Of a stretch of 64,000 nucleotides of DNA, positions 1,690 to 8,531 are shown one piece after another. The stretch is taken from NCBI GenBank assembly GCA_011056555.1, contig DSEQ01000040.1, forward strand, positions 97,075 through 161,074. Reading direction: 5' to 3'. The position numbers and the translations under genes were made by a program. The notes under the pieces are model-generated. The model was not told the DNA's origin and did not search any database. It saw only the letters and a list, made by a program, of their open reading frames with translations. Each line of letters begins with the position of its first letter. Position 1 is the stretch's first letter. This stretch comes from Candidatus Zixiibacteriota bacterium (GTDB lineage Bacteria > Zixibacteria > MSB-5A5 > JAABVY01).

Positions 1690-2934
1690 TTAATCCTCTT
1701 TGACTTTCAAGAGATGCTCGACACCATCATCCTCGAGAGATTTTGAGCCAAGCTGCACAGCCACATCGTAGGCGGTTTCTTCAACCTGGCCCATCGATAA
1801 TACCGCAAGAAATGCTCCGGCCAGAACTCCCTTGTAACCGGTAGAATCGACAGAATCGCTATCAAAACCTTTTGCATCAAGCTGCAATTCACCATCAATC
1901 CACAGTTCAGTACTTGCATCCGATTTGATGACCACTATCACTTTATCCTCAATTTCAAGATCATCCATTTCTTCCATTAACTTGAACCCATCTTCGCTGG
2001 TGAAAATAAAGTCACAATGCTGCAAAATTTCTGCGAGGATATATATGTGCTCCTTAGAGAAACTGTCGGAGATTTGAATTGATAAGAGACCTTCGAAATT
2101 ACCGCCTTTTTTAACATCCTTTAACCATTGGAGTTGCTTATCGGGCGGGGCTTCCGATATATGCAAATATTTGGCATTGTGATATTCGGAGGGGATATCA
2201 GTAATTGAAAAGCTATCCTCATCATCCGATAAATTTATACCATCGACAAAAACACTCAAATTATTGAGCGCTTTGTAAAGCTCATCATGATCTTTTTTAA
2301 TGGAAGTTATTATTGCAGTTCTATCGGAAAGACTTGAGGCGCCAACCCCGGTATAGTATGCCGGCCCGCCAAGCAAATTCTTTTTCTCACTGCTGCCGGA
2401 ATCGCTAACATCATATCCGGCATGACCCAAAATAAGCAGATCCGGATGGGTTGGGCCCTCTTCCGTTACCGGTTCTATATTCAGGATCAGGAATCTGGAG
2501 GTCTGGTTTGGAAGCTCGATATCGACTACCTGGCCTTTTTTCTTTCCGATCAGGCCTTGCCCCAGGGGCGAGGTGAATGTCACGATCGAGGGATATATTT
2601 CCAGCTCGAATTCGACCGGACCGGCCACAACATAGGAAACGACCTTATGTCTATTCATATCGAACAGTTTTACCCTGGTCCCGAATGAAACCACTTCGGT
2701 ATTGATATCTTTCTCCTCGATGAGCCTTGCTTTAAGGTACGTCTCCAGATTATTCAATGTGCTGAACAATTCCGATTGCTTCTCTTTAGCGGCGTCATAT
2801 TCGGCATTCTCCGAAAGGTCGCCCAATTCCGCGGCCCGGCCGATCTCCTTTGAATTCAGACGTATATCCTTTTTGATCTTTTCTATCCGTTTTACCAGCG
2901 TATCGTAAGCGTCTTTAAGAATAACAGTTCGCAT
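1690..2934 (-). CDS. GreA/GreB-type transcript cleavage factor fused to PfkB-like (ribokinase-fold) domain
   Basis: N-terminus has GDLSENAEYDAAKEKQ and SPLGQGLIGKKKGQVV (GreA); C-terminus has LLGGPAYYTGVGAS and VDSTGYKGVLAGAFLA (PfkB-like, altered DTxGAGD). Confidence 0.85.
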   Translation of the reverse strand: MRTVILKDAYDTLVKRIEKIKKDIRLNSKEIGRAAELGDLSENAEYDAAKEKQSELFSTLNNLETYLKARLIEEKDINTEVVSFGTRVKLFDMNRHKVVSYVVAGPVEFELEIYPSIVTFTSPLGQGLIGKKKGQVVDIELPNQTSRFLILNIEPVTEEGPTHPDLLILGHAGYDVSDSGSSEKKNLLGGPAYYTGVGASSLSDRTAIITSIKKDHDELYKALNNLSVFVDGINLSDDEDSFSITDIPSEYHNAKYLHISEAPPDKQLQWLKDVKKGGNFEGLLSIQISDSFSKEHIYILAEILQHCDFIFTSEDGFKLMEEMDDLEIEDKVIVVIKSDASTELWIDGELQLDAKGFDSDSVDSTGYKGVLAGAFLAVLSMGQVEETAYDVAVQLGSKSLEDDGVEHLLKVKED

Positions 2935-6384: not shown

Positions 6385-7374
6385 ATGAAAATCAGCGAGG
6401 ACCCCCTGAAAATGATCGGCCAGACCCCCCTGGTGCGGCTGAAATCGATGCTCAACGGCTCGGGCGTCAATATTCTGGCCAAACTGGAATATTACAATGC
6501 TACCGGTTCGGTTAAGGATCGTATGGCCGCCTATATTATCGAGGATGCCGAGAAGCGCGGGCTTTTGAAGCCGGGCGGTACAATCGTAGAAAACTCCTCC
6601 GGCAACACCGGCTCCGCCCTGGCAATGATCGCCGCGGTCAAGGGCTACCGGTGCATCATCACAATTCCGGATAAGATGAGCGATGAGAAGATTAACCTGA
6701 TGCGTGCCTATGGAGCAGAGGTTATCGTTACCCCCACAGATGTCCCGGCCGAATCGCCGGAGAGCTATTACAGCGTGGCGCGAAGAATCGCAGGGGAAAT
6801 ACCCGAATCATTCTATCCCGACCAGTACAACAATCCCAAAAACATAGAAGCGCACTACAAAACCACAGGTCCCGAAATCTGGGAGCAGACCGATGGTAAT
6901 ATCGATTATTTTGTGGCCGGAATCGGCACCGGCGGGACACTCAGCGGCGCCGCCAAATTCCTGAAAGAAAAAAATCCCGATATAAAAATCATCGCCGTCG
7001 ATCCTGAGGGATCGGTATTCTACAATTTCTTCAAAACCGGCGATATCGGCCAGCCGCATGTTTATAAGGTTGAAGGAATCGGCGAAGATTACCTCGTGAA
7101 AGCTGTTGACTTCAGCTTAATCGATGATATTATAAGAGTCACTGATAAAGACTCTTTTATAACCGCACGGAAGCTGGCTCGCGAAGAAGGATTGTTTGCC
7201 GGCGGATCATCGGGAAGCGCGGTCTGGGCCGCCCTGAAAGTGGCCGAGGAAATGGCCAAGCCCGGGCAGAATATCGTTACCATTCTGCCGGATCATGGCT
7301 CCCGCTACCTGAGCAAAATCTATAACGACAACTGGATGCGTGAGCATGGCTTCCTGAATGGAGACCGGCGATGA
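6385..7374 (+). CDS. Cystathionine beta-synthase / cysteine synthase family PLP enzyme
   Basis: IGQTPLVRL, NATGSVKDRMA PLP lysine motif, ENSSGNTGSALA; adjacent to cystathionine gamma-synthase/lyase. Confidence 0.9.
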   Translation: MKISEDPLKMIGQTPLVRLKSMLNGSGVNILAKLEYYNATGSVKDRMAAYIIEDAEKRGLLKPGGTIVENSSGNTGSALAMIAAVKGYRCIITIPDKMSDEKINLMRAYGAEVIVTPTDVPAESPESYYSVARRIAGEIPESFYPDQYNNPKNIEAHYKTTGPEIWEQTDGNIDYFVAGIGTGGTLSGAAKFLKEKNPDIKIIAVDPEGSVFYNFFKTGDIGQPHVYKVEGIGEDYLVKAVDFSLIDDIIRVTDKDSFITARKLAREEGLFAGGSSGSAVWAALKVAEEMAKPGQNIVTILPDHGSRYLSKIYNDNWMREHGFLNGDRR

Positions 7375-8531
7375 AATTTGAAACCAAAGCGCTGCATGTG
7401 GGCGAAGAACCGAACATTTCCGACGGGGGCAGCGGGGATGTTGTTTCTCCGATACACCTGACATCGACATTCGCACGAGACAAAATCGACCAGCCGACTA
7501 AAGGATATGAGTACTCCCGTTCAGCAAATCCGACCCGTGACGCACTGGAAAAGCGCCTGGCGGCCCTGGAAAACGGCAAATACGGCATTGCATTCGCCTC
7601 CGGACTTGCAGCCACGGCAACCGTCATTCTGAGTCTTCTCCGCGCCGGGGATCACATGATCGCATTCGACGATCTCTACGGCGGCACTCGTCGGCTTTTC
7701 TCACAGCTGTTTAAAGAAAATTTCAATATCGATGTCAGCTACGTGGATGCTCGCAAGGTGGAGAATATCGCCGATGCGGTGAAAGGCAAAACCCGCCTGA
7801 TCTGGCTTGAAACACCCACCAATCCGCTCTTGAAAATGTGTGATATAAGGAGCATTGCATCGATCGCCTGGGACAAAAAGATTTTTCTTGCTGTGGACAA
7901 TACGTTTATGACCCCCTACTTCCAGCTTCCGCTCGACCTGGGAGCCGACCTGGTGGTACACAGCACTACCAAGTATCTAAATGGCCATTCCGATTCCGTG
8001 GGCGGGGCGGTGATTACTTCGGATGATCATATTCATGATAAAATCCGGTTCAACCAGAATGCCGCCGGGGCCATACTTTCACCCTTCGACAGCTATATGG
8101 TCTTGCGAGGTACCAAAACCCTCTCATTGCGCATGGAACGTCACCAGCAAAATGCCATGGCAATAGCAAAATATCTGGAGGGCCATGATAAGGTCGAGCA
8201 GGTATTCTATCCCGGACTGGAAAGCCATCCGCAGCACCAGATTGCCAAAAAACAGATGAGCGGCTTTGGGGGCATGGTTTCTTTCGAGCTCAAAGCGGAT
8301 CTGAATCAGGCCCGGGGATTTGTGGAAGGATTGAGGCTTTTCACATTGGCCGAATCGTTGGGATGTGTGGAGTCCCTGGTTGAATTGCCCGCGCTTATGA
8401 CCCACTCCTCGATACCACCGGAAGAACGCAAGAAGACCGGGATCAAAGATTCGTTGATACGAATCTCAGTGGGAATAGAGAATATCGATGATCTGCTGGA
8501 TGACCTGGAGCAAGCTTTAAACGCTATCTGA
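7371..8531 (+). CDS. Cystathionine gamma-synthase/gamma-lyase family PLP enzyme
   Basis: Overlaps the upstream gene by 4 nt (ATGA); [39 protein letters not shown] motif. Confidence 0.92.

Follow-up and report, generated by a model that had tools for sequence, protein, structure and literature searches.

GreA is a protein that rescues stalled RNA polymerase. Gre-containing fusion proteins have been described in the TPR-GreA/B-C-PIN conflict systems (PMC8195603; Pfam PF20698). In plants, the pfkB-type proteins FLN1/PAP6 and FLN2 co-purify and cross-link with the plastid RNA polymerase; searches for a sugar substrate were unsuccessful, and in the mutants the transcripts that depend on the plastid polymerase are lost (PMC3409070, PMC9456514). 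The FLN proteins keep the PfkB signature in the form G/ASGD (PMC9698557). We found no fusion of GreA to a PfkB protein in the literature searched. Here, we describe a gene in which a GreA factor continues into a very divergent domain that we assign to the ribokinase/PfkB fold. At about even confidence, we read its product as the cell's Gre transcript-cleavage factor carrying a C-terminal non-catalytic PfkB-fold domain, which would serve as an integral regulator or as a docking module.

The gene lies in a window of 64,000 nucleotides, i.e., the whole stretch of DNA analysed (positions 97075-161074 of contig C4, DSEQ01000040.1), from a genome of 3.58 Mb in 55 contigs with an estimated completeness of 94.65%. 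A sequence-only reading had placed a single uninterrupted ORF at 1690-2934 without giving its strand; the ORF is intact, lies on the minus strand and encodes 414 residues, and every motif quoted in that reading occurs in the translation. The ATG start is closely preceded by AAGGAAGAG, which resembles a Shine-Dalgarno sequence. The gene is organized as follows:

1690-2934, minus strand: whole fused gene, 414 aa (coding 1693-2934, stop codon 1690-1692)
2731-2919, minus strand: GreA N-terminal coiled-coil domain, aa 6-68 (PF03449, GreA_GreB_N, 6.3e-14, 52.4 bits against a cut-off of 24.5)
2473-2700, minus strand: GreA C-terminal FKBP-like domain, aa 79-154, with the canonical SPLGQGLIGKKKG (PF01272, GreA_GreB, 7.9e-14, 51.8 bits against a cut-off of 26.9)
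2443-2472, minus strand: short linker PVTEEGPTHP, aa 155-164 (read from the codons across the junction)
1693-2442, minus strand: predicted degenerate ribokinase/PfkB-fold domain, aa 165-414 (NCBIfam, phmmer, PfkB HMM, Foldseek and a 46-protein alignment)

GreA makes up residues 1-156; the two Pfam halves are of full length and the acidic tip is intact. NCBIfam TIGR01462 matches aa 6-154 at 4.3e-32 with 111.3 bits, which is below the curated GreA cut-off of 139 bits, a naming threshold rather than a mechanistic feature. Together with the two Pfam matches, this bears out the GreA module with an acidic tip proposed from the letters. The coiled-coil tip reads GDLSENAEY and keeps the acidic Asp and Glu; in an alignment of 21 Gre proteins, it falls on GD(L/I)xEN in all 20 relatives. 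A Foldseek search with a full-length single-sequence model returned GreA, GreB and Gfh1 entries for this half at E-values of 1e-7 to 1e-4.

In a tree of the 21 Gre sequences, the fused GreA stands apart from the canonical GreA group and joins five divergent single-domain GreA proteins of the same phylum (genomes G003, G011, G016, G020 and G125) with a support of 100/99, its exact place being uncertain because the branches are long. The divergent single-domain clade (L003, L004, L005, L006 and L224) is itself characterized by MQVPILKSTYKxL...GDLKENAxYHxAREKQ, has APVARLLVTKK in place of the GLxGK motif of the C-domain, and apparently takes the place of canonical GreA in the genomes concerned. 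The position of the fused protein among these relatives, and the Gfh1 entries among the Foldseek hits, would fit an anti-Gre or otherwise specialised channel factor that competes for the secondary channel as Gfh1 does, with the pseudokinase as a switch. We give this reading little credence, as the tip carries the acidic pair of the canonical GDLxENAEY, the SPLxxGLIGK motif of the C-terminal domain is kept in the fused GreA but lost in its five divergent relatives, and no other Gre was detected in the genome for it to oppose.

The open frame could in principle stem from an assembly or sequencing error that joined two adjacent genes, given that it is known from one genome in 55 contigs and a second example is absent. 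The junction argues against this. The in-frame GreA alignment ends at profile position 76 of 77 (aa 154), and kinase strand 1 (aa 165) begins in the same frame about ten codons on. The codon table of the junction contains no ATG, GTG or TTG in the fusion frame between the GreA and kinase domains and none in frame +2 near the junction, while the start codons in frame +1 lie within or downstream of kinase strand 1. A single indel or a lost stop can thus not simply recreate two normal genes, and the frameshift of two genes that the sequence-only reading had named as a refuting case is not obvious, there being no start codons at the junction from which a second gene could be rebuilt. As the fusion gene also lies well inside a 161 kb contig, we see hardly any chance of an artefact. 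It is flanked by genes for a porin-like protein and a Ser/Thr kinase-PD40 protein, a context that gives regulation no support. Elsewhere in the window (6385-8531, plus strand), genes for a PLP-dependent synthase (PALP) and a Cys/Met-metabolism PLP enzyme adjoin each other with a 4-base overlap and likely form a transsulfuration pair.

The C-terminal half is much less readily recognized. Pfam PfkB (PF00294) gave no match to it even at E<=10, and it is not among the genome's five PF00294 hits, so that routine annotation would overlook the domain. In NCBIfam, aa 301-396 are matched by ribose-1-phosphate kinase (9.9e-6), and with phmmer the half aligns weakly but co-linearly with two nucleoside kinases, 2c49 and 3kd6. 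A local PfkB HMM, for which 46 PfkB proteins from related genomes were used, scored 17.0 bits, compared with a maximum of 6.9 among 2000 shuffles of the same sequence, and its matches follow the correct order, i.e., the first strand and di-glycine followed by the DTxGxGD end. We then turned to structure prediction. An attempt to align the half with PfkB proteins from viral contigs in support of AlphaFold was discarded, as the middle was misaligned; both structure runs were therefore carried out on the single sequence. For the template- and alignment-free AlphaFold2 model of aa 158-414, all of the best 50 PDB matches in Foldseek belong to the ribokinase family, led by 4wjm, 2c4e, 4u7x and 3bf5, and in the search with the full-length model the Gre/Gfh1 entries are followed mostly by ribokinase-family entries. 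These results agree with the ribokinase/PfkB-like module of the sequence-only reading and with the outcome it had sought from structure prediction, at a mean pLDDT of only 46-48 (46 for the model of the C-terminal half; the beginning of the kinase domain stays below 50). Because the kinase part reaches no E-value better than 2e-4, the fold assignment relies on the agreement of four lines. Judged from these sequence and model comparisons, the C-terminal half is a very divergent ribokinase/PfkB-fold domain, with less than 20% identity to the kinases compared.

To read the active-site columns, we added the C-terminal half to the alignment of the 46 PfkB proteins:

2410-2412, minus strand: strand-1 Asp175, retained (D in 46/46, query identical)
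2365-2370, minus strand: di-glycine hinge GG, aa 189-190, substrate side, retained (G in 46/46)
1987-1998, minus strand: NxxE position, aa 313-316, reads SEDG, lost (N in 41/46, E in 41/46; same register in the 2c49 alignment)
1912-1929, minus strand: TxGxxG nucleotide-loop position, aa 336-341, reads IKSDAS, lost (T in 45/46, G in 39/46, G in 44/46; 3kd6 alignment)
1828-1848, minus strand: DTxGAGD position, aa 363-369, reads DSTGYKG (anion-hole Gly to Lys, G in 46/46; catalytic Asp to Gly, D in 46/46)

The change of DTxGAGD to DSTGYKG, with both the catalytic Asp and the anion hole affected, had already been noticed from the letters and holds against all 46 proteins. The degeneration goes further, as NxxE and TxGxxG are lost and the middle region is shortened. 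Altogether, the nucleotide and catalytic positions lost are G213K, N313S, E316G, T336I, G338S, G341S, G368K and D369G, while G170, D175, G190, D215, T365 and G366 are kept. The di-glycine and TGxG lie 176 residues apart, compared with 204-262 (median 219) in the 46 PfkB proteins, so that the middle part lacks at least 28 residues relative to these; the 2c49 alignment places about 22 of the missing residues between the di-glycine lobe and aa ~253. We infer that the shortened stretch corresponds to the lid/substrate-cap region, as a structural label. By established PfkB chemistry, the catalytic base, the anion hole and the nucleotide loop are gone and the substrate side survives in part, and the residue pattern points to a pseudokinase rather than an enzyme. 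An active kinase that employs unusual catalytic residues could draw on the retained substrate side, i.e., Asp175 and GG189-190. We consider it barely credible, however, since none of the catalytic Asp, the anion-hole Gly, NxxE and TxGxxG survives and the segment from the di-glycine to the signature falls at least 28 residues short of that in any of the 46 proteins.

The two halves of the gene also differ in composition. GC at codon positions 1/2/3 is 0.52/0.31/0.57 in the N-terminal and 0.55/0.32/0.42 in the C-terminal half (GC3 of 0.573 versus 0.416). The genes of the window have a mean GC3 of 0.588 with an SD of 0.065 over chunks of 257 codons, of which 4/79 are as low as the C-terminal half. 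This position near the low end would also fit relaxed constraint or a foreign origin, and we regard the C-terminal half as coding-like yet compositionally shifted, compatible with a different origin or weaker constraint. A class-wide PfkB-like family (L025, 22-936, minus strand; L079, L080, L083 and L085-L091) has a TGCGD or TGAGD signature and the characteristic motifs NFISG, DxHSLxLG and QMN; L025 belongs to the window's own genome. The C-terminal half as a displaced copy of this class-conserved kinase was rejected, since the TGCGD-type protein exists separately in the same genome (L025). None of the collected PfkB proteins scores well against the C-terminal half (best phmmer E-value 0.008).

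We then asked how the architecture is distributed. No further PF01272 protein was found in the genome of the fusion. A PF01272 match is present in 96/133 genomes of the phylum, among which this is the only GreA-kinase fusion, its relatives having a free-standing GreA or none. As a separate observation, no GreA/B C-domain was detected in 37/133 phylum genomes, including 20/79 of high quality, and Gre looks to have been lost repeatedly in the phylum. The search for homologues of the same architecture that the sequence-only reading had proposed came back empty in the 133 phylum genomes and in the phage, plasmid and viral-contig collections, and the same collections yielded no relatives of the C-terminal half. 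A seed-based scan outside the phylum, which is weak for so divergent a protein, retrieved only a Lactobacillus-type GreA, and a PHROGs search gave no informative hit. No Gre was detected in two congeners and four sister-family genomes; the contig of one congener (G002) ends at the porin gene adjoining the fusion site, and in the synteny check the best match in G001 to the neighbouring Ser/Thr kinase has unrelated neighbours. The GreA-pseudokinase architecture thus appears to be new within the collections searched, and it rests on one genome.

These data bear on the main rival to a regulator or docking module, namely a passenger: a fused pseudokinase remnant that has no function itself and is tolerated as a C-terminal tail on a working GreA. 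It is a minority reading with a real, if clearly lesser, chance of being right. It would account for a fusion confined to one genome, for a C-terminal half whose codon composition is unlike that of the N-terminal half and fits local usage poorly, for the loss of the active-site motifs, and for several relatives without a detected Gre, in which Gre may therefore be dispensable. On the other hand, a frame of 250 residues that is free of stops and keeps a coding-like codon-position asymmetry despite extreme divergence, with a fold still recognisable at below 20% identity, suggests long retention as a protein, unless the divergence predates the fusion.

How, then, might a Gre factor with a built-in regulator or docking module work? 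From the structure and mechanism of GreA, its coiled coil would enter the secondary channel of RNA polymerase and stimulate cleavage of backtracked RNA. The extra domain of 250 residues would lie outside the channel at its rim, because the C-terminal domain of GreA grips the channel rim. From there, the pseudokinase could, speculatively, tune the frequency or the strength of Gre engagement, through a bound partner protein or through a small sugar- or nucleoside-like ligand held by the retained substrate side. Regulation of Gre by a dead kinase domain is a reasonable reading that the sequence features suggest. The sequence-only reading had proposed a nucleotide or metabolite sensor; the loss of NxxE, TxGxxG and GAGD alike makes a canonical nucleotide sensor the less likely form. 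Ligand sensing is just one option for this half: it may bind a sugar or nucleoside, its substrate side being kept and its lid shortened, or it may dock a protein. If the regulatory reading is true, the fusion would covalently couple a domain derived from metabolism, in the form of a dead metabolic-enzyme fold, to the secondary channel of RNA polymerase.

Compared with the GreA factors (PF03449 plus PF01272; TIGR01462), the fusion shares both full-length domains, the acidic tip and a GreA part of similar length, and differs by its extra C-terminal domain of 250 aa, its TIGR01462 score below the cut-off and its divergent five-member clade. With the PfkB/ribokinase family, the C-terminal half has in common the fold, the motif order, the strand-1 Asp and the di-glycine hinge, whereas NxxE, TxGxxG and GAGD are missing, the lid region is shortened and the domain is fused to GreA. 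The nearest solved structures are the M. jannaschii nucleoside kinase (2c49/2c4e), a Chlorobium nucleoside kinase (3kd6) and a putative ribokinase from Thermoplasma (3bf5).

Among Gre-containing fusions, the TPR-GreA/B-C-PIN systems likewise hold a Gre C-domain inside a larger protein, but the GreA/B C-domain only. Pfam finds neither a TPR nor a PIN domain in our protein and PADLOC gave no hit, so that we do not count it among these systems and reject a reading as a defence system. In NCBIfam PRK14720 and PRK06330 (GreA plus an unknown domain), Gre forms the C-terminus of a long protein, and none of the proteins compared from these three groups has a PfkB-fold partner. PF01272 frames of more than 270 aa in the 133 phylum genomes comprise the fusion (a 418-aa open frame), one of 1669 aa and a sub-threshold one of 1321 aa, the latter two of unrelated architecture. 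The 1669-aa protein (L222, 615-5621, plus strand, genome G036) combines AAA_11/AAA_12 helicase parts and an MTES_1575 REase with a GreA_GreB C-domain at its extreme end, which in this defence-like protein is a possible RNA polymerase-docking tail. The 1321-aa protein (L223, 165-4127, plus strand, genome G076) is a TPR-GreAB-C-PIN member with the order SMEK_N, TPR, GreA/B-C and PIN (PF20698; PMC8195603).

The closest functional parallel is offered by FLN1 and FLN2. They differ from the fusion in being separate subunits rather than Gre fusions and in reading G/ASGD where the fusion has TGYKG, and there is no evidence for common descent; as separate proteins that keep G/ASGD, they serve as a parallel by analogy only. 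A single-chain bacterial counterpart of the association between FLN and the plastid RNA polymerase, in which a metabolite directly sets backtrack rescue and proofreading through the fused sugar- or nucleoside-binding pseudokinase, is an unlikely version in our judgement. What the two share is a PfkB fold, no detected sugar-kinase activity and a tie to a bacterial-type RNA polymerase, which for the fusion follows presumably from its GreA half. The fusion would offer a compact system, open to purification, with which to ask why the plastid RNA polymerase also carries pfkB-type proteins for which no kinase activity has been detected.
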